Positions 35,576-53,591 of a stretch of 64,000 nt of DNA are shown here, piece after piece (within the stretch, counting starts at the first letter, position 1; every line of letters starts with the position of its first letter). A model generated the notes under the pieces. That model saw only the letters and a program-made list of their open reading frames with translations. It was not told the origin of the DNA and searched no databases. The position numbers were made by a program, and so were the translations under genes. Source of the DNA: Paenirhodobacter populi (GTDB lineage: Bacteria > Pseudomonadota > Alphaproteobacteria > Rhodobacterales > Rhodobacteraceae); NCBI RefSeq assembly GCF_004022215.1, contig NZ_SAUZ01000006.1, positions 1 through 64,000 on the forward strand. The letters are read 5' to 3'.

Positions 35576-36430
35576 ATGACCAGCATTATCACCAATACCA
35601 GCGCCATGACCGCGTTGCAGACCCTCAAGTCCATCAACTCGAACCTGGCTTCGGCCCAGAACGAGATTTCGACCGGCAAGACCATCTCGACGGCAAAGGA
35701 CAACGCCGCGATCTGGTCGATCACCAAGGTCATGGAATCGGATGTGTCCGGTATCAACTCGATCAAGACCGCCTTGGATCTCGGAGGATCGACCGTTTCG
35801 GTCGCACGGGAGGCGACCGAGTCGATCGTGAAGGATCTTCAGAGCATTCAGGATCTGGTGGTTCAGGCTCAGGCTGAGAACGTCGACAAGGAGACTCTGC
35901 AAACGCAGATCACCAACAAGATGGACAGCATCCGGAACTATATTTCCGGTGCCCAGTTCAATGGGCTGAATTTTCTCAATACGACTGGGGATGACGTCAA
36001 GGTGCTTGCCGCGCTCAATCGCGACAACACCGGTGCCGTCAGCACGGATACGATCGATATCGAACGGAACCAGCTCTACGATGGTTCTGCATTCACGGGT
36101 GCCCTCGCCGGTCTCGAAGGTCTTGACGTGGAAACCGCCGCTGACGCAACGGCACTTCAAGCGGCTATGACTGCGATCAACAGCGTGCTTTCGGCGACGA
36201 CCAAGGTGGCCTCCTACTACGGCGCCAAGGAAGCACAGATCGCGAGCCAGTCGGAGTTCATGGGCAAGCTTTCGGACGCGATGACCGCTGGCATCGGCAC
36301 GTTGGTCGATGCGGATATGGAAGAAGCCTCCGCCCGTCTGACCGCGCTGCAAACCCAACAGCAGCTTGGCATCCAGGCGCTGTCGATCGCCAACCAGACG
36401 CCGCAGAACATTCTGGCTCTGTTCCGCTAA
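35576..36430 (+). CDS. fliC: Flagellin
   Basis: 284 residues, short as in alphaproteobacteria. Conserved N-terminal D0/D1 helix (SIITNTSAMTALQTLKSINS, about 3-22) and C-terminal D0 helix (LTALQTQQQLGIQALSIANQ, then TPQNILALFR); the variable middle is small. It forms the filament. AAGGAC precedes the ATG. The third-position GC is lower than in neighbours, common for highly expressed flagellin. The 5' leader likely carries the FlbT target. Confidence 0.96.
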   Translation: MTSIITNTSAMTALQTLKSINSNLASAQNEISTGKTISTAKDNAAIWSITKVMESDVSGINSIKTALDLGGSTVSVAREATESIVKDLQSIQDLVVQAQAENVDKETLQTQITNKMDSIRNYISGAQFNGLNFLNTTGDDVKVLAALNRDNTGAVSTDTIDIERNQLYDGSAFTGALAGLEGLDVETAADATALQAAMTAINSVLSATTKVASYYGAKEAQIASQSEFMGKLSDAMTAGIGTLVDADMEEASARLTALQTQQQLGIQALSIANQTPQNILALFR

Positions 36431-36904: not shown

Positions 36905-37308
36905 GCGGCCTTGTCCTGAAGCTGGCCCCGAAGGAAAGGGTTCTGATCAACGGCGCGGTGATCGAGAATGGCGAGCGTCGTTCTCGGCTGGCGATCATGA
37001 CCCCGAATGCGCATATCCTGCGCCTGCGCGATGCGATCCACCCGGAGGAGGTCAACACCCCGGTGCGGCGCGTCTGCTACATTGCCCAGCTCGTCCTGTC
37101 CGGCGATGTTTCCGCGTCCGATGCGCATGTTCAGCTTCTGCGCGGAATCGAGCAGCTCAGTCAGGTCCTGACCGATCATGACAGCCGCAAGCAACTCGGG
37201 CTGGCCACCAGTGCCGTTCTGGAAAGTCAGCATTACAACGTCCTCAAGGCCCTCCGCAGCCTGTTGCCGCGGGAGGAACGGCTTCTCGCGGCAGGATCGC
37301 GGCCATGA
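36901..37308 (+). CDS. flbT: Flagellin mRNA regulator FlbT
   Basis: 135 residues. LKLAPKERVLINGAVIENG (about 6-24) and ILRLRDAIHPEEVNTPVRRV match FlbT, which binds the 5' leader of flagellin mRNA and represses translation until the hook is complete. It overlaps both flanking genes through ATGA. Confidence 0.94.
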   Translation: MSGLVLKLAPKERVLINGAVIENGERRSRLAIMTPNAHILRLRDAIHPEEVNTPVRRVCYIAQLVLSGDVSASDAHVQLLRGIEQLSQVLTDHDSRKQLGLATSAVLESQHYNVLKALRSLLPREERLLAAGSRP

Positions 37309-38123
37309 CCTACACGCCAGCGATTCCAACGGGTGGATATGCAGGCTGGCTTATCCTCAACCGCACCATGGCCAAGCAGGAAGCCGCCTTCGTTCAGACG
37401 GCGGCTTATCAGCGCAACGAAGACTATTTTCGGGAAAAGATCGGCAGCATCACCTCGGCCGAGGAACTTGTCGCCGACCGGCGCCTGCTTGCAGTTGCGC
37501 TTGGCGCTTTCGGTCTGGATGACGATATCAACAGCAAGGCGTTCATCAGAAAGGTGCTGGCAGAAGGCACGCAGGCCTCGGATTCTCTGGCGAACCGTCT
37601 GAGCGACAAGAGCTATTTCAAACTGGCCGAGGCCTTCGGCTTCGGCGATTATGAAACGCCCCGCACGGCGGAGGCCGGCTTCGCAGACGGAATCCTTGAA
37701 AAATACAAGAATCGCCAGTTCGAGGTCGCCGTGGGAGCGGTCAACGAATCGTTTCGATTCGCCCTGACAGCGCAACGTGATCTACCCGAAATCGCGGCGA
37801 AATCATCCTCGAACAATACGAAATGGTATCAGATCATTGGATCGTCGCCATTAGCCAGCTTCATGCAGTCAGCCCTTGGCCTTCCCACGGCGATTTCAAG
37901 TCTGGATGTCGACCGCCAGCTTGAGATTTACAAGCAGAAGGCCAAAACCCTGTTCGGGACAGACGACCTCGCCGCCATTGTCTCCGGTGATGGTATGGAC
38001 AAGTTGATCAAATCCTATCTCGTCAGAACCCAGTTGACGGAGGGAACCTCTGCCACAGGGCAATCTGCCGCCCTGCAGATCCTGCAAGGGACTTCCACCA
38101 ATCTGCTCTCACTGCTTCTCTAA
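37305..38123 (+). CDS. DUF1217 flagellar-locus protein
   Basis: 272 residues with two related halves typical of DUF1217 proteins: YFREKIGSITSAEELVADRR followed by LLAVALGAFGLDDDI, and a second SLANRLSDKSYFKLAEAFGF. Found almost only in alphaproteobacterial flagellar clusters; the exact role is not established. It is coupled to flbT and is the last intact gene before the IS remnants. Confidence 0.88.
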   Translation: MTYTPAIPTGGYAGWLILNRTMAKQEAAFVQTAAYQRNEDYFREKIGSITSAEELVADRRLLAVALGAFGLDDDINSKAFIRKVLAEGTQASDSLANRLSDKSYFKLAEAFGFGDYETPRTAEAGFADGILEKYKNRQFEVAVGAVNESFRFALTAQRDLPEIAAKSSSNNTKWYQIIGSSPLASFMQSALGLPTAISSLDVDRQLEIYKQKAKTLFGTDDLAAIVSGDGMDKLIKSYLVRTQLTEGTSATGQSAALQILQGTSTNLLSLLL

Positions 38124-38381
38124 GCTACAGTCTTCGGTAACGGGACGGTCCCAATCAATGGGTTTTGCGCATGTATTATGCACCGGTGGGCAGCGGTTCT
38201 GTCCTTTAATAGTTTGATCTGCGTTCCTGTTCATGCGGCCTGCGTCCGAGGCCGCCCCGGGTGCATGCTTCGGTCCGTAGTCAACGCGACGGTGGCCAAC
38301 ATGATGCTGATTCAATGGCATTCCGGTGTGCCCATCTCATTGGCGTGCTCGGCAAGATCGGCATCAGTCATGAGCACGGCA
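38124..38381. other. Non-coding, rearranged region before the IS110 remnant
   Basis: About 260 bases with no convincing gene. Translations in all frames are broken by stops and do not resemble the flagellar genes to the left. It is probably IS110 or other mobile debris. Confidence 0.5.
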
Positions 38382-38726
38382 TCACTGGAACCGCGTCCCG
38401 TGGGGATCTCGAGGGCCCGGGATGTCGCGCTCGCCCGACTGGTTGCGAGAGGGCGTCAGACAGGCCCTCGACTCGACTTTCTTCGACGATGTGAACCGAT
38501 CAGGATCATCGACAACGGATCGATAGGTCAGCGCAACGACCGCACCGGACATCGACATGAGGCGCAAACAGGCCGGATCCTCATGGGTGAGTTGGCGAAC
38601 ATGCCGCTCAAGACCCGCCAACTCACGCCGCAGCGCCAAGCGCGCGCGGAGCATGGGTCCATGCTCACTGATCACGCAGATCGCGGTCTTCTCCAGCGAC
38701 ACATCCAGCCCGACAAACAGCTTCAT
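38382..38726 (-). pseudogene. IS110-family transposase remnant (internally deleted)
   Basis: The first ~24 residues, MKLFVGLDVSLEKTAICVIS, are the N-terminal strand of an IS110 DEDD transposase with its first Asp. The frame then jumps to the far C-terminal region: LAGLERHVRQLTHEDPACLR, LTYRSVVDDPDRFTSSKKV, LTPSRNQSGERD. Roughly two-thirds of a usual 320-400-residue protein, including the remaining acidic residues, is missing, and the tail loses homology. It is non-functional. Confidence 0.85.
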
Positions 38727-38811
38727 CCCGCAGTCCTAATCTAGAATCCGATACGGGAGCGGCGCCAGCTTGCCCTCGACTTTGCAACGATAACGGGCGG
38801 GTCGCGGCGCA

Positions 38812-39021
38812 GGCTACGTTACGGTCAAGCACTTCCACTACGACAGCCACGACCAGCTCCACAGCACCTCGCCGACTTCTGTGCAGCCTACAACTTCGCC
38901 CCTTGGCTCAAGACACTCGGCGGCCTCACGCCCTACGAATACATCGGCGAGGTCTGAACCTCAGAGCCTGATCTGTTTCATCTTAAACCCGATCCACCAG
39001 ATGCCTTTGAACCGCTCCTGA
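38812..39021 (+). pseudogene. IS481-family transposase C-terminal remnant (frameshifted)
   Basis: Three short frames together rebuild the end of an IS481 integrase-core transposase. VKHFHYDSHDQLH is followed in a shifted frame by HLADFCAAYNFAPWLKTL and GGLTPYEYIGEV, then a TGA where the family has Trp, then TSEPDLFH and, shifted again, ILNPIHQMPLNRS. The DDE core is gone. It has at least two frameshifts and one nonsense codon. Confidence 0.85.
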
Positions 39022-39089
39022 TTTGCCGGCAACTGTATTCAGGCTGGTTGAACCTCCCTGAAGCAGGTTCCGGCAAATCAGGAGCGGTT
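39010..39089. repeat. Perfect 20-bp inverted repeat at the IS481 end
   Basis: AACCGCTCCTGATTTGCCGG (39010-39029) and its exact reverse complement (39070-39089), 40 bases apart. The left arm overlaps the last codons of the IS481 remnant, as terminal repeats of such elements can. The pair may be two IS ends lying tail to tail, or a strong hairpin. Confidence 0.75.
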
Positions 39090-39358
39090 TACGGGACGGA
39101 ACAGGCCGGGTGTTGCAAAAGGAATCGAACTGCGTTCAGGACTTGAAACGGAACGGGATCTTGCAGATCAGCCCTGACCTCGGCGTGACCGCCCGGCAGG
39201 TGCGCACCTGCGGACGGCCAAAACTCGGGGCGAGGGTACCCACCCATAGACCCGAGCAAATGCGGACAGGCCCCGCATCCGGGCCCTTCCACGATGACAG
39301 GCGGCGATCGACAGACGAACCGGAGAACTTCCGGGCCGTCGACCTGCCCCGCAAAGAA
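39090..39358. other. Non-coding region downstream of the island operon
   Basis: About 270 bases between the IS481 end and the stop of the first monooxygenase gene. I see no gene, and no strong hairpin just past the monooxygenase stop. It is probably the junction of the catabolic island. Confidence 0.45.
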
Positions 39359-40717
39359 TTACTCAGCCGCGGCCTTGCAGGTGTGGCGCGCGGCGATATC
39401 GCCGAACTTCGGCAAGGGCAGCCCAAGATTTTCGCGCAGGGTCGGTCCTTCGTATTCCGTACGGAACATTCCGCGCGCGCGAAGTTCCGGCAAGATGAAT
39501 TCGGCGACGTCCTCCATGCCGTTGGGCAGGGTCGCGGGGCAGATGTTGAACCCGTCGGCGGCGCCGTTCTCGGCCCATTTCTGCAATTCGTCCACGATGC
39601 TTTCCGGCGTCCCGGCAATCGTCCAGCCGGAATTTCCGGCGGCCGCGGCCAGATAGACATCCCGGATCGAGAGGTTCTTTTCCTGCGCCATCTGGTAAAG
39701 GTTGTCGGCCAGCGACTTGACCTTGGCATTCTTCGGTTCGGGAACCGGGCCATCGATATCGTAGTCGCGCAGATCGCCGAAATGGTGATACAGGATCGAC
39801 AGGCCGACGACCGGATCGATCAACTGTTGCAGCAGGTCCTGCTTGGCCTTCGCCTTTTCCATCGTTTCATCCACGTAGAAGGTCACGCCCGGCATGATCA
39901 GAAGCTCGGCCGGATCGCGGCCATAGGCGGCGGCGCGGGCTTTCATGTCGGCATAATAGGCCTGTGCCTTCTCGATCGAATAGGCCGAGGAATAGATCAC
40001 ATCCGCCGCCCGCGCGCCAATGTCGCGGCCCGGCTCCGATGCGCCGGCCTGCACGATGATCGGCCGCCCCTGCGGCGTGCGGGCCGAGTTCAGCGGCCCC
40101 CGAACCTTGTAGAAGCGCCCCGAGTGATTGAGGATATGCAACTTGGCCTCATCGTAGAACAGGCCGCTTTCCTTGTCGCGCAGGAAGGCATCGGGCTCCC
40201 AGCTATCCCACAGGCCGGCCACGACATCGACGAATTCATCCGCCATCGCATAGCGCGTGTCATAGTCGAAATGCTGGTCACGGCCGAAATTCCAGGCCTC
40301 CTGCTCGGACCATGAGGTGACGACGTTCCAGCCCGCGCGGCCACCCGAGATATGATCGAGCGAGGCATAGCGCCGCGCGATATGGAACGGGTCATTGTAG
40401 CTGGTCGAGGCGGTAGCGACGAGCCCGATGTTCTGCGTGCAGGCGGCGATGGCGGACAGCAGCGTGGTGGGCTCCAGTTCCGCATTCTTCATGCTGCGCG
40501 CAGCGGAACCCGGCGGCAGGTCGTCTTCGCGCACCCCCACGCTGTCGGCAAAGAAGATCATGTCGATCTTCTCGGCTTCGGCCTGTTTCGCGACCTTGAG
40601 GAAGTGTTGCAGGCTGAGCGCCCCATCCGCCGGCACATCCGGATGCCGCCAGGCGGCAATGTGGTAGCCAAGATAGCGACAGGACAGGCCGAGTTTGATC
40701 TGGCGAGTCATGGTCAT
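39359..40717 (-). CDS. FMN-dependent monooxygenase, NtaA/SnaA/DszA family (LLM-1)
   Basis: 452 residues, class F two-component flavin monooxygenase. Typical segments: IKLGLSCRYLGYHIAAWRHP at the N-terminus, IGLVATASTSYNDPFHIARR, LDHISGGRAGWNVVTSWSEQ, and IIVQAGASEPGRDIGARAAD. Relatives cleave nitrilotriacetate, EDTA, dibenzothiophene sulfone or similar compounds using FMNH2 from a separate reductase; no reductase gene is in view. It is last in the operon, after a binding protein of one importer, so the imported solute is probably its substrate. About half its residues appear shared in pattern with LLM-2 at 46412. Confidence 0.9.
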   Translation of the reverse strand: MTMTRQIKLGLSCRYLGYHIAAWRHPDVPADGALSLQHFLKVAKQAEAEKIDMIFFADSVGVREDDLPPGSAARSMKNAELEPTTLLSAIAACTQNIGLVATASTSYNDPFHIARRYASLDHISGGRAGWNVVTSWSEQEAWNFGRDQHFDYDTRYAMADEFVDVVAGLWDSWEPDAFLRDKESGLFYDEAKLHILNHSGRFYKVRGPLNSARTPQGRPIIVQAGASEPGRDIGARAADVIYSSAYSIEKAQAYYADMKARAAAYGRDPAELLIMPGVTFYVDETMEKAKAKQDLLQQLIDPVVGLSILYHHFGDLRDYDIDGPVPEPKNAKVKSLADNLYQMAQEKNLSIRDVYLAAAAGNSGWTIAGTPESIVDELQKWAENGAADGFNICPATLPNGMEDVAEFILPELRARGMFRTEYEGPTLRENLGLPLPKFGDIAARHTCKAAAE

Positions 40718-40768
40718 GTCATTTTCCTTTCCGGAACGGACGACGAGGTCCGCGATAGTTGAAAGAGG

Positions 40769-40799
40769 GTTCCCGGATGCAGGCCATGCATCCGGGAAC
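40769..40799 (-). promoter_or_regulatory. Strong hairpin between the permuted binding protein and LLM-1
   Basis: GTTCCCGGATGCA-GGCCA-TGCATCCGGGAAC: a perfect 13-bp stem with a five-base loop, 29 bases past the binding-protein stop and before LLM-1. No U tract. It could stabilise the upstream message or lower expression of LLM-1. Confidence 0.75.
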
Positions 40800-40827
40800 G
40801 GGTCAGCCCGTATCCCGGTGCCGGAGG

Positions 40828-42582
40828 TCAGGCGTATTTGTAGCCGGCCTTTTCCATCAGCGATTTCGCCAGGTCGAGATCGTAGGGAATGGGCTTGAGA
40901 TAGTCGTGATCATATTCCTCGGCAGTCACCGGCATCGGAACGGTGCCGGGCTTCCCATAACCGGCGATGAGGTTCTTGATGATCTGTTCGCGCGGGATCG
41001 CATGGCTGATGGCCTGCCGCACATAGACGGCCGCTTCCGCCGCCCGCGACGGATCCTGTTTGCCAAGCGGCGTGTCCACCCCGGTGCCGAAGACCGGATG
41101 TTTGAGGTTCAGACAGGTCTGCTGCCACTTGTAGCTGTCGAATGTCAGAACCTTGCCCCAGTCCTCCTCGATGGTGCTGACCAGCGTGCCGATGTCATAC
41201 ATCGGATCATGGGCGTCGATCTCGCCAGCCTTGAGCGCCGACAGGACGGCATCCGCCCCCTGAATGTTGACGACGAAGAATTCCGTCACATTCCCCGTCG
41301 TCTCTTTCCAGTAATCCGGGTTCTTCACCATGCGATAGGCTTTGCGCATCGCGTCGAACCCGGCCGGGATCCACGGGCCGGTTCCCACGGCGCCCTTCGC
41401 CTCATAGGTCCTGCCGTCCGAGGTGGTGACCGTGAAACCGCTCGTCCAAGTCGAGATCGTGTGCTTGCGGAACTCCTCGGGGCCGATGGACGCATAGGCA
41501 TGTTTGGGCATGATGCTGATCGAGGTCAGCACGAGCCCCTCGAACAGGATCGAGTATTTCGGCAAGGTCACTTTGATTTCGTAGGGCGAGACCTTTTCAT
41601 AGGCCTCCTTGGAACCGAAGGTCGAGACCAGCGGGCTGTTCTGCACCGAGGCATAGGCCGGATCGAGGATCGTGTCCCAGGTGTAGATCACGTCATCGGC
41701 GGTGAATTCCTCGCCGCTGTGCCATTTGACGCCTTCGCGCAGCTTGATCGTCCAGACCAGACCATCTTCGGATGCGGTCACGCTTTCCGCCAGCGCGGGC
41801 ACCGCCTTCTTGGTCTCCCAGCTGTCGTATTCCATCAGGGAATTGTAGACTGGGCCGAAGATGTTCGATTCATTGTAGCCTGAGGAATACATGGGCACGA
41901 GCGTCGTCGGCGGCTGCCAGCAGGCGAATGCGGCCGAAACATCCGGCCCCGTGGCGCTGGTGATCGTCCAGTTTTCCGGGCGCGGGAAGAAGACCGGATT
42001 GTAGGTCGTCGCGTCGAAGCCTTCGAGGTCGGGATTGATCGCGATCACGTCCTCCGGATAGAAGACCATGTGCAGGGGCTGAATATCATACCAGCGGTGT
42101 TCAAAGGTCTTCAGGGCTTCGGCCCGCTTCTGCGGATCGGGCGAACTGGAATAGGTCTCCATCGCCTGTTCCAGAATATCATCCTCGACCCGGTAGAAGT
42201 TCTTGCCGAAGGGCGGGAAGGCCGCTTTGGAAAACAGCACATCGGGCAGCGGCATCATGGTGCTGTAGTAGATCCGCTCCGAATACATGTCGAAGCCGCC
42301 TTCGGTATAGGTGGCGCCGGTTTCATTCGCGCGGCGGCTGATGACTTCTGACGGGGGGACGTAGCTCGTCACCACCTCGACACCCAGTTCGGCGATGTTC
42401 TTGCCGATCAGGTCGGTCCAGATCATCCGGGTCTGCTGGTTGTTGAAGATCGTCAGATAGATCTTGAAATGCGGCTCCGCGGCGTGGGCCGGGCTCCAGA
42501 TCACGGTCGGCACGGTCATGGCGGCGGCACCGATCCCGACCCTTTGCAGGAACTCCCGGCGCGTCGGTTGATTGTTCGACAT
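40828..42582 (-). CDS. Peptide/nickel-type ABC substrate-binding protein, apparently circularly permuted
   Basis: 584 residues, SBP family 5. A Tat signal (PTRREFLQRVGIGAAAM, cut near AHAA) comes first. Residues about 36-205 look like the C-terminal lobe of the family (FKIYLTIFNNQQTRMIWTDL, GKNIAELGVEV, DPQKRAEALKTFEHRWYD, DVIAINPDLEGF). Only then, from about 214, does the usual N-terminal lobe appear (VPALAESVTASEDGLVWTIK, LREGVKWHSGEEFTADDV, YVRQAISHAIPREQI). The protein stops at YDLDLAKSLMEKAGYKYA, exactly where the normal C-lobe would start. Two normally ordered relatives at 51856 and 63038 serve as references. Partner permeases are upstream. Confidence 0.88.
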   Translation of the reverse strand: MSNNQPTRREFLQRVGIGAAAMTVPTVIWSPAHAAEPHFKIYLTIFNNQQTRMIWTDLIGKNIAELGVEVVTSYVPPSEVISRRANETGATYTEGGFDMYSERIYYSTMMPLPDVLFSKAAFPPFGKNFYRVEDDILEQAMETYSSSPDPQKRAEALKTFEHRWYDIQPLHMVFYPEDVIAINPDLEGFDATTYNPVFFPRPENWTITSATGPDVSAAFACWQPPTTLVPMYSSGYNESNIFGPVYNSLMEYDSWETKKAVPALAESVTASEDGLVWTIKLREGVKWHSGEEFTADDVIYTWDTILDPAYASVQNSPLVSTFGSKEAYEKVSPYEIKVTLPKYSILFEGLVLTSISIMPKHAYASIGPEEFRKHTISTWTSGFTVTTSDGRTYEAKGAVGTGPWIPAGFDAMRKAYRMVKNPDYWKETTGNVTEFFVVNIQGADAVLSALKAGEIDAHDPMYDIGTLVSTIEEDWGKVLTFDSYKWQQTCLNLKHPVFGTGVDTPLGKQDPSRAAEAAVYVRQAISHAIPREQIIKNLIAGYGKPGTVPMPVTAEEYDHDYLKPIPYDLDLAKSLMEKAGYKYA

Positions 42583-42647
42583 CTTGTTTCCCTGTTTGTT
42601 GCAATGTTGAAGGTGCCGCCGGTTCCTGCCGGCGATCTGTTTTCGGT

Positions 42648-43574
42648 TCAGCGGCGTCGCGCGCGCGGGTTGGCGGCGTCGGACAGGCCGTCCGCCAGCA
42701 GGTTGAACCCCAGCACGGTGATGAAGATCATGAATCCCGGCGCCAGAGAGGCCATCGGCCAGATCTTGAGCGACTGGTAATTGAAGTAGAGCATCTGCCC
42801 CCAGCTCACCGCGTTCGGATCGCCGAAGCCGAGGAAAGAGATCATCGCCTCGGCCAGGATCGCGCCGCCGATTTCCAGCGCGATCAGCACGACGATCGAG
42901 GGAAAGGCATTGGGCAGGATTTCGGACAGGACGATCTGCCGGCCGCTTTGCCCGCCACACCGTGCCGCCTGAACGAATTCCAAGGTCTTGATCCGCAGGA
43001 ATTCACCCCGCGTCATCCGCGCGATCGGCGCCCATCCAAACAGGCCGATCATCAGGATGATGACCGTCAGGTTGAAATAGGGCATGGTTTCAAAGGCCGT
43101 GCCGGTCACCGCCTTGGACAGCACCCGCACGACCGCAAGGATGATGATGAAGATCGGCACGACAAGGAAAAACTCGGCAAAGCGCATCAGCACCTCGTCG
43201 GTCCAGCCGCCGCGATAGCCCGCGATGCCGCCGATCAGGATGCCCGCGCAGCCCGAGATCAGCACCGCCCCCAGCCCCACGACAAGCGCCGTCCGCGCGC
43301 CATACAGCAGCTGGGTCAGGATGTCATAGCCCAGCCGGTCCGTGCCGAGCCAGTGGTCGGCCGACGGCCGCGCATTCGCGCCGACCGCATACATCGCCGA
43401 CTGGTCCTTGGGCGCATAGGGCGTCAGCAGCGGTCCGAAGATCGCCACGATCACCACGAACATCACCAGCCCGAAGCCGACCCGCCCCGTCATGCTCGTC
43501 CGCAGGCAACGGCCGAACAAGCCGAAGCGCGCGGGACGGGCTACAGGATCGATGCTGTCGTTCATGCTCGTCAT
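42648..43574 (-). CDS. Peptide/nickel-type ABC permease (DppC type)
   Basis: 308 residues with six membrane helices. HWLGTDRLGYDILTQLLYGA (about 72-91) is the DppC signature, and the ATPase-docking loop is EFVQAARCGGQSGRQIVLSE. Inner-membrane half of the second importer. GAGGAA precedes the ATG. It lies nine bases after the DppB-type gene and 65 before the permuted binding protein. Confidence 0.93.
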   Translation of the reverse strand: MTSMNDSIDPVARPARFGLFGRCLRTSMTGRVGFGLVMFVVIVAIFGPLLTPYAPKDQSAMYAVGANARPSADHWLGTDRLGYDILTQLLYGARTALVVGLGAVLISGCAGILIGGIAGYRGGWTDEVLMRFAEFFLVVPIFIIILAVVRVLSKAVTGTAFETMPYFNLTVIILMIGLFGWAPIARMTRGEFLRIKTLEFVQAARCGGQSGRQIVLSEILPNAFPSIVVLIALEIGGAILAEAMISFLGFGDPNAVSWGQMLYFNYQSLKIWPMASLAPGFMIFITVLGFNLLADGLSDAANPRARRR

Positions 43575-43583
43575 GGCAATTCC

Positions 43584-44573
43584 TCACTCAAGCCGGACGC
43601 GCGGATCGATCAGCGCGTAGAGAATGTCGGTCAGGGTGGTCATCAGGATCAGCATCACCGCGATGACGATGCTGATCCCCATGATCAGCGGATAGTCGAG
43701 CTGCTGGATCGCCATCACGTACAGCGCCCCGAGGCCGGGCCATGTGAAGACCGTCTCGGTCACCGGCGAGGTGCCCAGCATCAGTCCCAGCAGCAGGCCG
43801 ACATAGGTGATCACCGGCAGCATCACCATGCGCAGGGCGTGACGGCGGATGATCTCGCCCTCTTTCAGGCCCGAGGCCCGCGCCGTGCGGATGAAATCCT
43901 GCCGCAGGGTATCGATCATGTTCGTCCGCACCAGCAGGGTCAGCGTGGCGATGTTGAACATGGAAATCATCGCGACCGGCAGGACCATGTGCCACAGCCC
44001 GTCGAACAGGGCGCTGCCCCACAGAAGCCGCCGGGTCGAGATCGCGCCGTAGCTCGGAAACCATCCCAGCACGAAGGAAAAGATGTAGATCAGGATGATC
44101 CCCAGAAAGAAGGCCGGCATGGACTGACCCAGCAGAACCGTTCCCATGACGGTGAAATCCTGCCGCGAATGCTGCCTCCGGGCGGCCCATGTTCCGGCGC
44201 AGATCGCGACCGCGACCGACAGGATGATCGCCGGGATCTGGATCTGCATGCTGTGCAGACCCCAGGACCAGATCATGCCGCCGACCGGCAGGTTGTAGGT
44301 GATGCTCGTCCCGAAATCGAGCCGCAGCAGATCTCCAATCCAGATGAAATATCGCTGGATCAATGGCTTGTCCAAACCATACTGGGCCGAGATCAGATCG
44401 ACGGTTTCCTGTGACACACCCGGCGTTTCGGCCAGCATCAGCTCGACCGGATTGCCCAGAGAATTGATCAGGAAGAAGATCACCGCCGAAGTGCAAAGCA
44501 TCATGATCGCGGCATAGATCAGTCGCCTGAGGATGTAGCGGCCGGTTTCCATGTCATCGGCTCCTGTGTTCAT
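43584..44573 (-). CDS. Peptide/nickel-type ABC permease (DppB type)
   Basis: 329 residues. N-terminal helix, a conserved periplasmic YGLDKPLIQRYFIWIGDLLR, then the docking loop DFIRTARASGLKEGEIIRRH and TETVFTWPGLG at the C-terminal third, all DppB marks. An alternative start is the internal ATG at 44552 (METGRYILRR). It pairs with the DppC-type protein at 42648. Confidence 0.93.
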   Translation of the reverse strand: MNTGADDMETGRYILRRLIYAAIMMLCTSAVIFFLINSLGNPVELMLAETPGVSQETVDLISAQYGLDKPLIQRYFIWIGDLLRLDFGTSITYNLPVGGMIWSWGLHSMQIQIPAIILSVAVAICAGTWAARRQHSRQDFTVMGTVLLGQSMPAFFLGIILIYIFSFVLGWFPSYGAISTRRLLWGSALFDGLWHMVLPVAMISMFNIATLTLLVRTNMIDTLRQDFIRTARASGLKEGEIIRRHALRMVMLPVITYVGLLLGLMLGTSPVTETVFTWPGLGALYVMAIQQLDYPLIMGISIVIAVMLILMTTLTDILYALIDPRVRLE

Positions 44574-44585
44574 TGCGAACGGGGA

Positions 44586-46259
44586 TCATGGCTGCGGGCT
44601 CCCGTCGTGAGACAGGGTGATCTCGGCCCCCGGGATCGCCGCAACAAGGCGGCGGGTGTAGTCGTCGCCCGGCGACAGGAAGATCTGCGCGGGCGGGCCG
44701 GATTCGACGACCCGTCCCTTGTGCATGACCAGCACCTCGTCGCAGATCTGGCTCGCGACCCGCAGGTCATGGGTGATGAAGACCAGCCCGACCTTTGTTT
44801 CCGCCTGAACATCCGCGAAAAGCTTCAGGATCTGCGCCTGAATCGACACATCGAGGGCGGAGATCGCCTCATCCGCGACGATGACCTGCGGATCGAACAT
44901 CAACGCGCGCGCAATCCCGATCCGCTGACGCTGACCGCCGGAAAATTCATGCGGATAGCGGTCGAAGGCCGAAGCGGACAGGCCAACCATGTCGAGGTAA
45001 CGCCGTGCGGCCGCGCGGGCGACGCCGGGCGTTTCGCCATAGGTCACCGGCCCCGCCGTCAGGATGCGCCCGATGGTGTGGCGCGGGTTGAGCGAGGCGA
45101 ACGGATCCTGAAACACCATCTGGATGGTCTTGCGGTAGGGGCGGAACGCGGCCTCGGGCATCGCCGCGACATCCGCGCCATTCAGGATGATCCGGCCGCC
45201 GTCGCAGTCGATCAGCTTCATCAGCAGCTTGCCGAGCGACGATTTGCCCGAGCCGCTTTCCCCCACGACCCCCAGCGTCCGCCCCTTGCGCAGCTCAAAG
45301 CTGACGTCATCGACCGCGACGACCCGGCGTTCCTTTGACAGAAATCCGCCGCCGGAACGGTAGACCTTGCGCAGGTTCTCGACCTTCAGGACCACGGGCG
45401 TGCCCTGCATCCCCTCGCGCGTGTCGCCCCGCATCCGCGGCACAGCGGCGACAAGCCGCTGCGTATAGGGGTGTTCGGGCCGCGTCAGGACCTTTTGCAC
45501 GGTGCCCGCTTCGACCAGATGCCCCTTTTCCATCACCAGAACGCGGTCGGCGATTTCCGAAACCACGCCGAAATCGTGGGTGACGAACATCACGCTCATC
45601 CCCTTGCGGCGCTGAATATCCCGGATCAGTTCGAGGATCTGCGCCTGCGTCGTGACATCAAGCGCCGTCGTCGGTTCATCGGCGATCAGGATCTGCGGCT
45701 CCAGCGCAAGCGCCATGGCGATCATCACCCGCTGCCGCTGCCCGCCGGACAGCCGGAAGGGATATTGCAGCAGCATCAGTTCCGGATCGGGCAGCCCGAC
45801 CTCCCTCACCAGTTCCAGCGCCCGCGCCCGCCGCGTCTGCGCCGTTCCGACACCATGCGCGCGCATCACCCCGGCGATCTGATCGCCCACCGTCATCAGC
45901 GGATTGAGTGCGGACAGCGGGTCCTGAAAGATCATGGAAATCGCCCTGCCCCGCAGATCGCGCAGCGCCTCGGGCGGCTCGGTCAGCAAATCGCGGCCGT
46001 CAAAGACGATCCGGCCCGCAACGGGTTTCAGTTGCGGCGGCAAAAGCCCCATAACCGCATTCGACATCACCGACTTGCCGGACCCGGATTCACCGATCAC
46101 GCAAAGGATCTCGCCACGGCGCAGCTCCACGCTGATATCGCGGACGGCATGGTCACGGTCCATTCCCGCCGGCAGGGAAACGTTCAGACCCTCGATCGCC
46201 AGAATGACATCATCCGTCGAAATCACATCCGATCTTTCGATTTGAGCAGAGGCATTCAT
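44586..46259 (-). CDS. Peptide/nickel-type ABC ATPase, two ATPase domains fused (DppD-DppF)
   Basis: 557 residues. Two complete ATPase cassettes in one chain: Walker [16 protein letters not shown], signature [18 protein letters not shown], Walker [13 protein letters not shown]; then Walker [15 protein letters not shown], signature [15 protein letters not shown], Walker [13 protein letters not shown]. So a single protein can supply both sites of the second importer. The ATG at 46259 follows AAGGGAC. It is followed at 13 bases by its DppB-type permease. Confidence 0.95.
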
Positions 46260-46411
46260 TTTGCGTCCCTTGTCGATTTCGTCGTGATTTTCATCTGTCT
46301 TCCGTGCCGGCCCGGAGTTTCCGGGAAACGGGGCAAGCCTCACCCGCCGCCCGGAACCTGTCGTTCCGGAACGCATTTCCTGCCCCGACGCGGATCACCG
46401 GGGGTTTTGCC

Positions 46412-47797
46412 TCAATGCGAAATGGCTATCCGATCCTCGCTTTGCGAAGCAGCCACGCCCGGTTGCGTCTTCTTGTTCGGCACCGGGTCGAGCCCGAGGC
46501 TTTCCCGCAACGTCTTCCCCTCATATTCTGTGTGGAACAGTCCGCGCCGCTTCAGCTCCGGGATGAGCTTGGTGATGAAATCCTCGGCCCCGCCGGGGAA
46601 ATAGGGCTCCATCAGGTTCCATCCGTCGCAGGCGCCGTTCTCGAACCATGTCTGCATGTGATCGGCGATCGTTTCGACGGTTCCGCTGACCACGCAATGC
46701 CCGGAGGAGATGGAGATCTCCTCATAGACCTGCCGCACCGTCATCGGCGTTTCCCGCAGGCGGCGTTCCCATTGGTCACGCGCGCTCTTCACCCCGTTCG
46801 ATTCCGGCAAAGGCAGCGGCACCAGATCGTCCGGGTCCAGATGGCTGAGGTCGCCGAAGGTCTTGGAAATGAGCTGCATCCCGACCTGCGGATGCACAAG
46901 GGATTTCAGCTCGGCCATCCGGGCCTCGGCCTCGGCCTCGGTCGCGCCGATGACCGGCATCATGCCGGGCATGACCAGAACCTTTGCCGGATCGCGCCCG
47001 GCGGCGGCCACCCGCGCCTTCATATCCGCATAGAATTCCTGCGCGAGCTTCAGATCCTTCTGGCCGGTATAGATGATGTCCGCGACGCGCGCGCCAAGTT
47101 CGCGCCCCGGACCCGAGCTGCCCGCCTGCGCGATCACCGGATGCCCCTGCGGCGAGCGGCGCAGGTTCAGCGGGCCGCGCACCTTGTAGAATTCCCCCTT
47201 GTGGTTCAGCACATGCATGCCTTCGGGGCGGAAATACTGGCCCGTCTCCTTGTCGGCGATGAAGGCGTCATCGTCGAAGCTGTCCCACAATCCGGTGACC
47301 ACATCGACGAATTCATTCGCCCGTTCATAGCGCTGCGCATGTTCCATCAGCGTGTCGCGATTGAAGTTCTGCGCCTCATCCTCGCTCCATCCGGTCACGA
47401 GGTTCCAGCCCGCACGCCCGTGGCTGATATGATCGAGCGAGGCGTATTTCCGCGCCAGCGTGTAGGGTTCGTTATAGGTCGTGGAGGCGGTGCAGATCAG
47501 GCCGATCTTCGATGTGACCGCGGCCAGTGCGGACAGCAGCGTCAGCGGCTCGAACCTGTCGATATGGCCGTGATAGCTCAGTTCCTCGGCATCGCGATGC
47601 GGGATGCGCACGGCGGCGCCATCCGCCAGAAACATGAAATGGATCTTGGCATCCTCGGCCATCTTGATGATGCGGGCATAGCCTTCGAAATCATTCGCGA
47701 TATCGGGATCGGCGTCCGGGTGGCGCCACCCCGAATTGTGCGCCCCATTCTGCACCATGTTGATGCCGATCTTCATCATGCGTTTCGGTTCCGTCAT
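46412..47797 (-). CDS. FMN-dependent monooxygenase, NtaA/SnaA/DszA family (LLM-2)
   Basis: 461 residues, same family as LLM-1: MKIGINMVQNGAHNSGWRHP, IGLICTASTTYNEPYTLARK, LDHISHGRAGWNLVTGWSED, VIAQAGSSGPGRELGARVAD. It needs reduced FMN from elsewhere. The ATG at 47797 has GAGGGAG upstream and lies 11 bases after the DppF-type gene, so it is cotranscribed with the first importer. Two paralogues flanking two importers suggest two related substrates or two steps of one path. Confidence 0.9.
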   Translation of the reverse strand: MTEPKRMMKIGINMVQNGAHNSGWRHPDADPDIANDFEGYARIIKMAEDAKIHFMFLADGAAVRIPHRDAEELSYHGHIDRFEPLTLLSALAAVTSKIGLICTASTTYNEPYTLARKYASLDHISHGRAGWNLVTGWSEDEAQNFNRDTLMEHAQRYERANEFVDVVTGLWDSFDDDAFIADKETGQYFRPEGMHVLNHKGEFYKVRGPLNLRRSPQGHPVIAQAGSSGPGRELGARVADIIYTGQKDLKLAQEFYADMKARVAAAGRDPAKVLVMPGMMPVIGATEAEAEARMAELKSLVHPQVGMQLISKTFGDLSHLDPDDLVPLPLPESNGVKSARDQWERRLRETPMTVRQVYEEISISSGHCVVSGTVETIADHMQTWFENGACDGWNLMEPYFPGGAEDFITKLIPELKRRGLFHTEYEGKTLRESLGLDPVPNKKTQPGVAASQSEDRIAISH

Positions 47798-47808
47798 CTC
47801 GGTCTCCC

Positions 47809-48930
47809 TCACCGGCCCATGACCGGCGTTTGTGTTTCGAACCGCTCCACCGCCTGCGGGCGGAGAGGATAGTGGCAAAGGCAGTTTTCGGGCGTGGCGT
47901 GCACGCCGCCCGTTGGGCCCGGCTGGGGGCGCATCTCGACACAGAGGCGGGGAAGGCGGTGGCCGCCCTCGACCACCACCCCATGTGGGTCCATCGTCCG
48001 CGCCAGGGCGCGGGCATGGGGGCAGCGCGTATGGAAGGCGCAGCCCGTCGGCAGGGCAAGCGGGCTTGGCACCTGCCCGTCGAGCAGGCAGACGGGTTTC
48101 GCACGGGCCTCTTCGGGATCGCCCTCCGCCACGACCGACAGCAGGCTGTCGGTATAAGGATGGGCGGGCGCGTCGCAGATCCGCCGGGTCGGCCCATGTT
48201 CGATGAACCGCCCCAGATACATCACCCCCGTCGCATCGGCGAAACGGCTGACCAGTGCCAGATCATGGGTGATGAACAGATAGGTCAGCCCCAGTGTTTC
48301 CTGCAGATCGACCAGCAGGTTGATGATCTGCGCCTGAACCGAAACATCGAGCGCGCTGACAGGTTCGTCCAGAACGACGATCTCGGGTTCGCAGATGATC
48401 GCGCGGGCGATGGCGACACGCTGTCGCTGGCCGCCCGACAGCTCATTCGAATAGCGATCCAGATGCGCGATGTTCAGGCCGACCTGACGGATCACCTTTT
48501 CGATCCGCATCCGCTGACCCTCGCGGGTGCGGTCGATGTCATGGACGATCAGCGCCTCGCGCAGGACGTCGTAAACCGTCTGGCGCGGGTCGAGCGAGGC
48601 GCGCGGATCTTGCAGCACCATCTGCATCCGGCGCCGCAACCGGCGCTTTTCCCGCGGCGGCAGGGACTGGATCGGCTGTCCGTCCAGCAGGACCTCGCCC
48701 GATGAAACCTGCACAAGACCCGTGATCGCGCGGGCGAGCGTGCTTTTGCCCGACCCGGATTCCCCCACGATGCCGAAACAGGATCCGCGCGGAACGTCGA
48801 AACTGATGTCATCGACGGCCAGCACATGGCGGGTCGGCCCCTTGCTGAACAGCGGGCGCGACAGGGGGAACCGGACCGAGAGGTTGCGGATGCTCAGGAT
48901 CGTGTCCGATCCGGTGACGTCGAAGGGCAT
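47809..48930 (-). CDS. Peptide/nickel-type ABC ATPase (DppF type)
   Basis: 373 residues. Walker [15 protein letters not shown] (about 52-65), signature [15 protein letters not shown], Walker B IVVLDEPVSALD, and the C-terminal oligopeptide-transporter extension GCAFHTRCPHA with its Cys residues. It supplies the second ATPase of the first importer; the other is fused to a permease just upstream. GGAGG precedes the ATG, one base after the preceding stop. Confidence 0.94.
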   Translation of the reverse strand: MPFDVTGSDTILSIRNLSVRFPLSRPLFSKGPTRHVLAVDDISFDVPRGSCFGIVGESGSGKSTLARAITGLVQVSSGEVLLDGQPIQSLPPREKRRLRRRMQMVLQDPRASLDPRQTVYDVLREALIVHDIDRTREGQRMRIEKVIRQVGLNIAHLDRYSNELSGGQRQRVAIARAIICEPEIVVLDEPVSALDVSVQAQIINLLVDLQETLGLTYLFITHDLALVSRFADATGVMYLGRFIEHGPTRRICDAPAHPYTDSLLSVVAEGDPEEARAKPVCLLDGQVPSPLALPTGCAFHTRCPHARALARTMDPHGVVVEGGHRLPRLCVEMRPQPGPTGGVHATPENCLCHYPLRPQAVERFETQTPVMGR

Positions 48931-48931
48931 G

Positions 48932-50902
48932 TCAGACCTCCTCCGCGAAATGGCAGGCGACCAGCTTGCCGCCGACGGGGCGCGGCTCGGGCGTCTGCGT
49001 CTGGCACAGCGGGCGGCCATGCGTCCGGCCGCAACGGGGCGCGAAACTGCATCCCGGCGGAAACTGACCCAGCATCGGCGGATCGCCGGTGATGGCGGAC
49101 AGGCGCTTGCCCTCGCCGGCCGCATGAAGCCGCGGCGCCGCCGCGCGCAGGGCGCGGGTATAGGGATGCGAGGGGTTGCGGAAAACCTCCTCGACGGTGC
49201 CGGTCTCGACGATGCGGCCACCGTAGATCACCGCCACGTCGTCGGCATAGCGCGACACCAGCCCCAGATCGTGGGTCACCAGCATCATCGCCATCCGGCT
49301 TTCCTGCTGCATCCGGCGCAGCAGGACCAGAATCTGCTGCTGGATCGTCACATCGAGCGCCGAGGTCGGTTCATCCGCCAGCAGGATGTCCGGATTCTGC
49401 GCCAGCGCGATGGCGATGACGATCCGCTGCTTCATGCCGCCCGAGAACTGATGCGGATACTGGTCAAGACGTTCCTGCGGGTCGGCGATCTGCACGGCGG
49501 CCAGCAGCTCCGCCGCCCGGCTGCGCGCCTGCGCCTTCGGCATCGGATTGCCTGACAGGATCGCCTCGATCAATTGCGCGCCCACGGTCATCACCGGATT
49601 GAGCGCGCTGGACGCATCCTGAAACACCACACCGATATGCTTGCGGCGCAGTTGTTGCAGGCGCTCGGGCGTCATCGCGCTGACGTCTTCGCCGCCGATG
49701 GCAAGGGTGCCGTCGCTGATCAGCGCCTGACCGCGCGGCAGGATGGTGCCGACCGCGCGCAGAAGCGTGCTCTTGCCCGAGCCGGATTCCCCGACGACCG
49801 CCAGCATCCGGCCCCGCCGCAGGGTGAAGTTGACGCCCCGCACCGCGGGCAGTGCCCCGGACGCGGTCAGATAGGACACTTCCAGATCACGGCCGGCGAC
49901 CAGCACATCCTCCGGCATGTCGGGGATGGCAGTCGGCGCCGCCACGGGCTTGCGCCGCGCGGCTTTGGCAAGCCCGCCGAACCAATGCGCCCGACGCGTC
50001 TTTGCGGCGGTGGGGTCGTAGATATTCCGCAGCTCCTCCCCCAGCAGGTTGAAGCCAAGCGCCGCAATGGCAAGGAACAGCCCCGGGAACGTTGCCATGT
50101 AGGGGTGGCTTCGGATGTAGGACCGGCTCTCGCCCAGCATCGTGCCCCATTCCGGTTCGGGCGGCTGCGTGCCGAGGCCAAGGAAGCTCAGCCCCGAAGC
50201 GGTCAGCAGCGTCGAGGCGAACAGCAGGCTCGACAGCGTGACAAGGATGCCCGCCATGTTGGGCAGCACATGCCGCGCCATCACCCGCAACGGCGAACAC
50301 CCCAGGGCGACGCTGCCCTCGACGAACGGCTCGGCCAGCGTGCTCAGCGCGACGGCCCGGGCGGTGCGGATGAAGACCGGGATCGACACCGTGCCGACGG
50401 CGATGATCACGTTCATTGTGCTCGGCCCCAGCAGGGCCACCAGAGCCAGTGCGAAGACAATATCGGGAAAGCTCAGCATGATGTCGACGGCGCGCATCAC
50501 CAGTTGATCGAACCAGCCGCGGAACCATGCCGCCGCAAGGCCAAGCGGCACCCCGAACAGGAACGCGACCGCCACACCCCCGATCCCGATCCCCAGCGAC
50601 GAATGCGCCCCTTGCAGGATCCGGCTGAAGACATCGCGGCCCAATTGGTCCGTGCCAAACCAGTGGGCGGCCGACGGCCCTTTCAGCGTCGCCATGAAAT
50701 CCTGCTTGTAGGGATCGAGCGGCGCGATGAACGGCCCGAACAGCGCGATGAAGATCATGACGGCGACAATGCCAAGGCCGATGGCCCCCTTGGGCGACGA
50801 CACCAGCCGCCGCAGGACCCGGAAATGCGGCTTGCGGCGCGTGGCAGGGGCGCTGGCCGCGATGCGCGTGCCGGAAAACTCGTTGGACATCGGAAGGGTC
50901 AT
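48932..50902 (-). CDS. Fused ABC permease-ATPase (DppC-DppD)
   Basis: 656 residues. Residues ~1-310 are a DppC-type permease (HWFGTDQLGRDVFSRILQGA, TASGLSFLGLGTQPPEPEWG); after a linker, ~335-656 are a DppD-type ATPase (Walker [15 protein letters not shown], signature FSGGMKQRIVIAIALAQ, Walker B ILLADEPTSALD, C-terminal GCSFAPRCGRTHG). Such fusions are a known variant. The ATG at 50902 overlaps the preceding stop (ATGA); another ATG lies at 50890. Confidence 0.93.
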   Translation of the reverse strand: MTLPMSNEFSGTRIAASAPATRRKPHFRVLRRLVSSPKGAIGLGIVAVMIFIALFGPFIAPLDPYKQDFMATLKGPSAAHWFGTDQLGRDVFSRILQGAHSSLGIGIGGVAVAFLFGVPLGLAAAWFRGWFDQLVMRAVDIMLSFPDIVFALALVALLGPSTMNVIIAVGTVSIPVFIRTARAVALSTLAEPFVEGSVALGCSPLRVMARHVLPNMAGILVTLSSLLFASTLLTASGLSFLGLGTQPPEPEWGTMLGESRSYIRSHPYMATFPGLFLAIAALGFNLLGEELRNIYDPTAAKTRRAHWFGGLAKAARRKPVAAPTAIPDMPEDVLVAGRDLEVSYLTASGALPAVRGVNFTLRRGRMLAVVGESGSGKSTLLRAVGTILPRGQALISDGTLAIGGEDVSAMTPERLQQLRRKHIGVVFQDASSALNPVMTVGAQLIEAILSGNPMPKAQARSRAAELLAAVQIADPQERLDQYPHQFSGGMKQRIVIAIALAQNPDILLADEPTSALDVTIQQQILVLLRRMQQESRMAMMLVTHDLGLVSRYADDVAVIYGGRIVETGTVEEVFRNPSHPYTRALRAAAPRLHAAGEGKRLSAITGDPPMLGQFPPGCSFAPRCGRTHGRPLCQTQTPEPRPVGGKLVACHFAEEV

Positions 50903-51840
50903 ATGCGTCCGTATCCCGTGGCTGCCGACTTTTCGCGGGTGCGCGGATCGAGCCATTGGCCGATCAGGTCGGTGGCAAGGTTGATGACAATGAAGACGGC
51001 GGCGAACATCAGCACGCAATACTGGATCACCGGATAGTCGGAGCTGCCGACCGCCTCGACCAGTAGCCGGCCAAGGCCGGGAATGCCGAAGACCGTCTCG
51101 GTCACGACGGAGCCGCCCAGCATGCCGCCGAACTGCACGCCGGCGACGCTGACGGCGGCGACCAGCGAATTGCGCAGCGCATGGCGGACGATCACGCGGG
51201 TCTCGCTCAGGCCTTTCGACCGCGCGGTGTCGAGGTAGTCCTTGCCCATGACCTCCAGCAGGTTGGCGGTCACGAGACGGCTGAACAGCGCGGCCGGGCG
51301 TGTCGCCACCACGATCACCGGCAGGACGAAATGCCAGGGCGTCGCCGCCCCCGCCGCCGGAAGCCAGCGCAGCTCGACCGCGAAAAGCCAGATGCACAGC
51401 AGGCCCAGCCAGTAGATCGGCATCGAAATCCCGGCAAGCGTCACGATCGTCACGATGGCATCGAACCAGCCGCCCTGACGCAACGCACAGATCACGCCCG
51501 TCACGACGCCGAACAGGATCCCCAGCAGCAGGCCGCCCACGGCAACGATCAGCGTCTTTGGCAGACGTTCGCCGATCTCCTGCACGACCGGCCGGCTGGT
51601 GCGGTAGGAAACCGCGATTTCCGGATCGACGACGCCTTTCAGGAAAAGGCCGTAACGCGCGATCGGCGACTGATCGAGGCCAAGGTGGCTGCGGATGGCC
51701 GCGACTTCCTCGTTCGTGGCCATGTTCCCTGCAAGCTTGGCGGCAGGATCGCCGGGGATCATGTCGACGAACCAGAACGCAAGGATACTGACCGCAAGAA
51801 GCGTCGGTATCGCGACAACGAAGCGTCTGAGGACATACAT
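50899..51840 (-). CDS. Peptide/nickel-type ABC permease (DppB type)
   Basis: 313 residues, six helices. N-terminal MYVLRRFVVAIPTLLAVSIL, loop LGLDQSPIARYGLFLKGVV, docking segment DYLDTARSKGLSETRVIVRH, and TETVFGIPGLGRLLVEAVG. First permease of importer one; it follows its binding protein by 15 bases. Confidence 0.94.
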   Translation of the reverse strand: MYVLRRFVVAIPTLLAVSILAFWFVDMIPGDPAAKLAGNMATNEEVAAIRSHLGLDQSPIARYGLFLKGVVDPEIAVSYRTSRPVVQEIGERLPKTLIVAVGGLLLGILFGVVTGVICALRQGGWFDAIVTIVTLAGISMPIYWLGLLCIWLFAVELRWLPAAGAATPWHFVLPVIVVATRPAALFSRLVTANLLEVMGKDYLDTARSKGLSETRVIVRHALRNSLVAAVSVAGVQFGGMLGGSVVTETVFGIPGLGRLLVEAVGSSDYPVIQYCVLMFAAVFIVINLATDLIGQWLDPRTREKSAATGYGRI

Positions 51841-51855
51841 CCGCCTGCCCTCGGC

Positions 51856-53409: not shown

Positions 53410-53536
53410 CGAAAATCCTGTTGCTGTGGATGTTCCGCCGTTTTTCCGGGCCAGACGGCCCCGCTCCCACGGCTTCTTGTTTCCGGATGCGGCGACCCGT
53501 TTCGGGGCGCCCTCATGAGGAAACGTTGTCGTCCGC

Positions 53537-53551
53537 TTGACTTTGCGTCAA
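53537..53551. promoter_or_regulatory. Candidate LysR operator
   Basis: Perfect inverted repeat TTGAC-TTTGC-GTCAA followed by AT-rich ATTATAAATT, in the 182-base gap between the divergent LysR gene and the island operon. LysR proteins usually bind such interrupted palindromes. The half-site also recurs in the TRAP upstream site at 8258, with a one-base-longer spacer. Confidence 0.55.
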
Positions 53552-53591
53552 ATTATAAATTCCTGATGCACATATCCTGAGGTTATGGGTC

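Follow-up and report, generated by a model that had tools for sequence, protein, structure and literature searches.

The gene P0001 is a minus-strand frame (42582-40828) in the window, that is, the whole stretch of 64,000 nucleotides that was analysed. It encodes 584 residues in one intact open frame without an internal stop, has its own start and stop, and is separated by 65 bases from the upstream permease gene and by 110 bases from the next gene downstream. In the same gene run, also on the minus strand, we found genes for a DppC-like permease (42648..43574; BPD_transp_1, 1.5e-28; OppC_N, 6.8e-7) and a DppB-like permease (43584..44573; BPD_transp_1, 3.1e-41), which bears out the initial annotation in assigning partner permeases to P0001. 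A fused double ATP-binding subunit of the DppD/F type is encoded beside them (44586..46268, minus strand; ABC_tran in two stretches, 1.3e-59); its start is not settled, and the open reading frame extends to 46376. Genes for NtaA/DmoA-family FMN monooxygenases lie on both sides, one being the next gene downstream of P0001 (39359..40717, minus strand; TIGR03860, 531.9 bits with a cut-off of 279.7) and the second lying upstream (46412..47878, minus strand; 542.4 bits). Since TIGR03860 is a broad subfamily named after NtaA and DmoA, these matches do not fix the substrate. Flagellar genes (flagellin, 35576-36430; DUF1217, 37305-38123) are located beside the downstream side of the transport operon. 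A short minus-strand frame between them and the operon (38382-38726), which by eye resembles the start of an IS110-type transposase, is possibly the edge of an inserted block.

P0001 begins with a putative N-terminal signal (residues 1-35; 42478..42582, minus strand), judged by eye to be of the twin-arginine type from the motif RREFLQ. The Pfam TAT_signal model gave no match to P0001 at 1e-3, and in two relatives it matched with E values of 0.054 (L072, P0004) and 5.5e-5 (L073, P0005). Residues 36-205 (41968..42477, minus strand) correspond to the C-terminal part of the family, placed first; they were assigned by a C-part model, a normal-order profile and the Pfam matches of relatives, and sequence comparison indicates that they comprise the latter part of lobe II and the stretch that leads back to lobe I. 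Residues 219-584 (40831..41928, minus strand), assigned by Pfam SBP_bac_5 and the normal-order profile, correspond to the N-terminal part, placed last and ending in AKSLMEKAGYKYA; by the same comparison they represent lobe I and the first part of lobe II. Residues 191-218 (41929..42012, minus strand), which lie between the two HMM domains and are unmatched by the profile, would link the old C terminus to the old N terminus. When four stretches were compared with L072, a relative of about 75%, positions 206-213 in this linker showed the lowest conservation, 3 of 8 residues being identical.

SBP_bac_5 (PF00496) was the sole Pfam match of P0001 at 1e-3, with no homology to MglB or cluster B. Its score of 204.6 bits, with a cut-off of 32.4, places the protein in the family by profile; the match covers only residues 260-582, equivalent to profile positions 2-279 of 368 (E 3.4e-60). 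Collinear family models thus see only part of such permuted proteins. In NCBIfam, ten models matched P0001 at 1e-3, all under their cut-offs; for five relatives searched at 1e-30, three had matches, likewise all under the cut-offs, and two had none.

Order of the two parts in P0001

The normal-order profile comprised 529 positions, was made from 55 full-length collinear relatives and P0002 (56 rows), and was split at position 360. P0002 (51856..53409, minus strand), a normal-order family 5 binding protein encoded in the same window, served as the control. The C-part model, which included normal-order rows only, matched residues 36-205 with 39.4 bits (E 1.9e-13), whereas the best score for shuffled sequences was 8.6 bits (774 of 1000 shuffles reported). 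When the whole of P0001 was compared with the normal-order profile, residues 39-190 aligned to positions 363-513 (32.1 bits) and residues 219-582 to positions 42-358 (246.0 bits), so that both the N-part and the C-part of the SBP_bac_5 family are present and the collinear N-to-C order, on which the Pfam model itself does not insist, is not. Reordered, P0001 gave one collinear domain over profile positions 43-513 with 296.9 bits. P0002 in its native order was a single collinear domain of 512.8 bits, and when cut likewise it yielded two of 131.4 and 358.6 bits. The normal order that the initial annotation had read for the homologues at 51856 and 63038 was seen in both, in the second (P0003, cut by the window end) for the part inside the window, which is collinear with the normal-order models.

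The N-terminal segments of four same-order relatives matched the Pfam positions missing from P0001 (289-366, 295-366, 291-355 and 289-355), with E values of 1.1e-6, 4.2e-6, 4.7e-4 and 0.035, all below the Pfam gathering score. These matches support the permuted order independently of the profiles built for this purpose. Residues 36-205 of P0001 alone had no Pfam match, and a single-sequence phmmer search of the PDB with them returned six matches (E 0.035-1.9), none of which was a substrate-binding protein; the order is therefore demonstrable by family profiles only. The reading of the initial annotation could thus not be demonstrated by Pfam or single-sequence search of the segment on its own.

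The absence of such matches would also be expected if the N-terminal segment were a different domain or came from another gene, the true C-part having been lost or being supplied by another protein; a similar possibility is raised for the permuted part of TpMglB-2 by the authors of its description (PMC4990184). This explanation is countered by the score of the normal C-part model over the best reported shuffle and by the relatives' segments that match the missing Pfam positions. In addition, when positions 38000-45000 were scanned in six frames, the only C-part match lay at 42016-42435, N-terminal to the N-part, and nothing matched beyond the stop of P0001. No second C-lobe therefore follows by frameshift; such a lobe would, according to the initial annotation, have refuted its reading. 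The other C-part matches in the whole window (51868-52344 and 63044-63490) belong to the two normal-order binding proteins. Taken together, the profile scores, the Pfam matches of the relatives and the scan make a different domain or a lost C-part very improbable and, we consider, close to refuted.

A second alternative is that the order is an artefact of assembly, frameshift or fusion involving two tandem normal-order genes; a split gene was likewise considered and rejected. Tandem genes for such proteins do occur, for instance the two in L068; however, P0001 is one intact frame with the start, stop and spacing described above, and the same order was found in complete records of plasmids from Neorhizobium, Salipiger and Halalkalicoccus, as well as in numerous unrelated genomes. 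These independent complete records refute an artefact, to which we assign a negligible likelihood, and uphold the earlier view that the intact 584-residue frame with its own start is not an assembly break. We conclude from these alignments that P0001 is, as originally proposed, a circularly permuted substrate-binding protein of family 5 (SBP_bac_5, cluster C): descent and sequence make it a member of the family, and chain order makes it a variant.

Position of the new ends and relation to known systems

The N-part of P0001 ends at AGYKYA, directly after the AKxLLxEAGY helix. Positions 214-536 of the permuted profile (N-part) mapped to residues 2-339 of 1dpp, which puts the cut at about DppA residue 339 of 507. 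Domain III of EppA, which forms lobe II, occupies residues 303-530 of 563 without interruption (PMC7312458), and by a crude count back from the C terminus the cut falls about 90 residues past the first lobe crossing and about 135 before the second. Because domain III is contiguous in EppA and the cut maps to about DppA residue 339, the new ends appear to lie inside lobe II, in the loop that connects the AKxLLxEAGY helix to the strand after it, and not at the lobe boundary, where the initial annotation had put them.

Structure prediction gave models of low confidence. With an alignment of N-part rows only, AlphaFold2 returned a pLDDT of 61.9 and a pTM of 0.57, and confidence was low over much of residues 36-205; an alignment of C-part rows plus two N rows gave 52.8 and 0.35, the weak region now being much of residues 214-584. 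The second alignment (A8, two N rows) was picked by a search over 680 subsets, and a combined N and C alignment misaligned the C rows. In the low-confidence second model (pLDDT 52.8), residues 39-172 form a strand, helix, strand, helix, strand, helices at 112-117, 135-146 and 150-167, and a short strand, an order of elements like that of the second half of lobe II; both models are too poor to superpose. A Foldseek search with the first, low-confidence model listed 50 matches with TM scores of 0.37-0.43 of the query. By name they are binding proteins of the peptide, nickel, opine and glutathione types, which is what family 5 would give.

P0001 shares the sequence of both of its parts with DppA, OppA, NikA and EppA (PF00496, cluster C), and its locus resembles those systems in the DppB/DppC-type permeases, the DppD/F-type ATPase and the N-terminal signal. 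What sets it apart from them is its chain order: the last third comes first, which would open the chain in lobe II and close it across the former termini. A PDB search with the permuted profile gave 108 matching sequences; in the best 60 of these 108 the alignment begins no earlier than profile position 208, which shows each of the 60 to be unpermuted. The closest precedent is TpMglB-2 (Tp0684), a solved, naturally permuted glucose-binding protein of cluster B for which the name 'Cluster Bc' was proposed; its natural permutation, like that of P0001, occurs in several lineages, and TpMglB-2 is described as still binding its ligand and closing upon it (PMC4990184). According to the same source its cut is different, since the first three strands of its N-lobe were moved to the C terminus, and it belongs to cluster B and not to cluster C. 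P0001 thus resembles TpMglB-2 in being permuted, and is not a member of Cluster Bc.

With regard to gene content, the locus resembles the EppA/EmoA system for EDTA, in which the genes for a cluster C binding protein and two permeases are described as lying together with that for an FMN monooxygenase active also on NTA (PMC7312458). An NtaA/EmoA-type FMN monooxygenase gene, as in an aminopolycarboxylate operon, does lie alongside P0001, with the substrate left unfixed by TIGR03860. Unlike P0001, EppA is described as having the normal domain order (I, 27-256; IIa, 257-302; III, 303-530; IIb, 531-563; PMC7312458).

A literature search by titles and the starts of abstracts returned no natural permutant of family 5; subscription papers fell mostly outside this search, which leaves such a report's absence unproven. 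A word search of CIRPIN (PMC12667903) for solute, periplasmic, transporter and SBP found none of these terms. On the model of Cluster Bc, natural permutants of family 5 could be called 'cluster Cc'. 

Family 5 proteins are among the commonest binding proteins of prokaryotes, and the source genome alone has 21 places that match a search for them. Natural permutants would provide ready-made, evolutionarily tested ends in lobe II, useful for relating lobe connectivity to the Venus-flytrap motion and also for the design of sensors.

Distribution of the permuted order and the genes beside it

The order was classified in 177 non-identical family 5 frames that passed a completeness filter among the loci fetched. 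Of these, 122 were normal, 52 permuted with the lobe II cut, and 3 had another order. In the 52 permuted proteins the N-part ends at profile position 357-358, except in L172, which ends at 334 at a contig end; on reordering, 50 of the 52 gained more than 10 bits and 50 of the 52 became one full-length domain, compared with none of the 52 in native order. The 52 come from alphaproteobacteria, haloarchaea, Bacillota and Chloroflexota, and ten more were found in the draws from Deinococcota and Actinomycetota. P0001 is not unique: it is one of a widespread permuted set, found by the search of other genomes that the initial annotation had suggested. Full-length orthologues with the same order are encoded on the Neorhizobium plasmid (74.7%) and on the Salipiger plasmid (57.5%). 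Window positions 39000-54000 matched plasmid pNCHU2750b of Neorhizobium sp. NCHU2750 at 78.1% over 78% of the 15 kb, suggesting horizontal exchange of the operon block. Seven of seven haloarchaeal plasmid loci (L074, L113 and L115-L119), picked from long-coverage matches, were permuted. Matches in S. meliloti and S. medicae (80-87% query coverage), which seemed permuted, proved on reading to be of normal order and were not flagged in the order classification; the name of a PDB entry suggests that they are AgpA-type.

Genome surveys, in which a few best candidates per genome were scored, gave lower bounds. In the source's own class, called alphaproteobacterial from the nearest DNA and protein relatives, at least 13 of 385 genomes have a confirmed permuted protein; 17 genomes matched, the other four being three with normal-order loci only and G211, with a contig-end fragment and a normal one. 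The remaining draws bear inferred phylum names. The own phylum gave 1 of 299 genomes among the matches listed, the source genome itself; the phylum of 'Clostridiales bacterium PH28_bin88', at least 16 of 199, including 15 cut in lobe II; that of a Chloroflexi genome, at least 3 of 201; that of Leifsonia, at least 2 of 246; and that of a Deinococcales genome, at least 8 of 111, two further genomes matching over 62-547 and 6-548 and being unclassified by order. In the phylum of Treponema, 0 of 149 matched at E 1e-80, a threshold at which an empty result says nothing about absence. When 147 relatives were searched with P0001, no other genome gave a full-length match among the matches listed, and a scan of a viral collection gave one relative, not flagged as permuted.

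Of 14 annotated permuted loci, 13 have two permease genes in the gene run of the binding protein, and in a further 13 of 13 loci examined by blastp, two of which have the other cut, DppB- and DppC-like neighbours are encoded on the same strand; permeases thus adjoin permuted proteins in 26 of the 27 loci checked. The exception is L118 (4908-6701) of Haloarcula sp. JP-L23, where ABC permeases are not annotated nearby and genes annotated as arylsulfotransferases are close. This one locus would fit a real permutant that no longer works in transport, such as a decayed or sensory protein. Against such a loss stand the permeases beside the other 26 copies and the purifying selection on both parts of P0001, for which the NG86 dN/dS values, with L072 as reference, were 0.155/0.798 for residues 36-205 and 0.169/1.443 for residues 214-584; we regard it as quite improbable.

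In our preferred explanation, to which we give a probability of about 0.9 as a whole, P0001 would serve a Dpp-type ABC importer as its binding protein, with a chain that the sequence shows to be circularly permuted. The linker would join the former termini and the new ends would lie in lobe II, with the three-dimensional fold and Venus-flytrap binding presumably kept. The new N terminus, bearing the secretion signal, would direct export, and the ligand, judging from gene order, would be handed to the adjacent DppB/DppC-like permeases, only the connectivity being altered. The position of the NtaA/DmoA-type FMN monooxygenases on either side faintly suggests that the ligand may be a small organic substrate of theirs. 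P0001 would belong to an old permuted group spread across alphaproteobacteria, haloarchaea and other phyla. Separate origins, for example through duplication and trimming of tandem genes, are most likely for two further groups, one sharing this cut and one cut elsewhere.

In haloarchaeal and alphaproteobacterial loci (L074, L110-L113, L115, L117 and L119), M28, M20 or M81 peptidases, creatininase, hydantoinase or racemase are encoded nearby, a hint of modified peptides or amides as ligands. As the neighbouring genes vary among the relatives, the ligands probably differ within the permuted group.

A second cut and the number of origins

The three proteins with another order share a second cut: L178 (2099-3988), L179 (2014-3768) and L180 (2013-3821), all on the minus strand, begin at profile position 221-224, continue almost to its end and resume at 33-34, running to 222-223. 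Pfam independently agrees for the two that were scanned: the best stretch lies near the N terminus (145-364 in L178, 135-364 in L179), with a second stretch elsewhere. The new end follows an NPNYW/NPDYW motif and, by a crude count, lies at about the end of EppA domain I. DppB/DppC-like permeases adjoin the second-cut proteins in both wider loci checked (L190 and L191).

Trees were made from both parts together, with FastTree on 154 rows of reordered sequences and with a mixture model on 75 rows. Several permuted rows were flagged by the tree program for long branches and unusual residue composition, and the division into groups A and B was made only once a tree was at hand. On the FastTree tree the permuted label needs four changes, three of which are forced by starred branches alone. 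The P0001 trio (100, starred) and group A (32 rows, support 81) stand apart in one weakly resolved region, group B (8 rows of the Bacillota draw; 100, starred) stands beside a normal-order protein (97, starred), and L182 lies among others. The mixture-model tree also needs four changes, with L182 among normal-order rows at 98 (starred).

These trees bear on whether a single ancient permutation gave rise to every protein cut in lobe II, the split being produced by long branches and uneven sampling. In favour of a single event, groups A, B and L182 share the cut to a precision of a few profile positions, the deepest forks have supports of only 52-54, the mixture-model tree places B among normal-order rows at 82-83 and its starred branches force only two changes, and A with B as one clade was rejected only at p 0.016. 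However, one clade of all 25 sampled same-cut rows was rejected (p-AU 4.06e-5, 101 log-likelihood units), the starred placements of B and L182 oppose it, and in 12 same-cut proteins the stretch between the matched parts differs, with 2-11 residues in B (n=4) and 17-28 in A and the L182 type (n=8). A clade of A including the P0001 trio (p 0.44) and one of B with L182 (p 0.106) were not rejected. We therefore consider a single ancient event rather unlikely; the rejection of a single clade suggests that permutation occurred probably at least twice at one loop.

Permutation at least twice at the lobe II loop and once at the other site is thus likely. Duplication, fusion and trimming of tandem genes, a model described for circular permutation (PMC3320104), is a plausible route, and the short gap of 2-11 residues in the four B proteins is as expected of it; an intermediate of the C-N-C-N type was not seen among the proteins examined. 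On balance, we lean towards the broader view that permutation is a recurrent, unrecognised route in family 5, with at least two independent events in the loop of lobe II and another close to where domain I ends, that the resulting proteins persist in archaea and several bacterial phyla under generic annotation, and that the loop after AKxLLxEAGY is a natural hot spot that can be opened without loss of function. If origin at one loop was repeated, the predictability of permutation sites becomes directly testable. More than one permuted type also occurs within single genomes (those of L140/L173, L141/L174 and L177/L179/L180), as groups A and B or as group B and the second cut.
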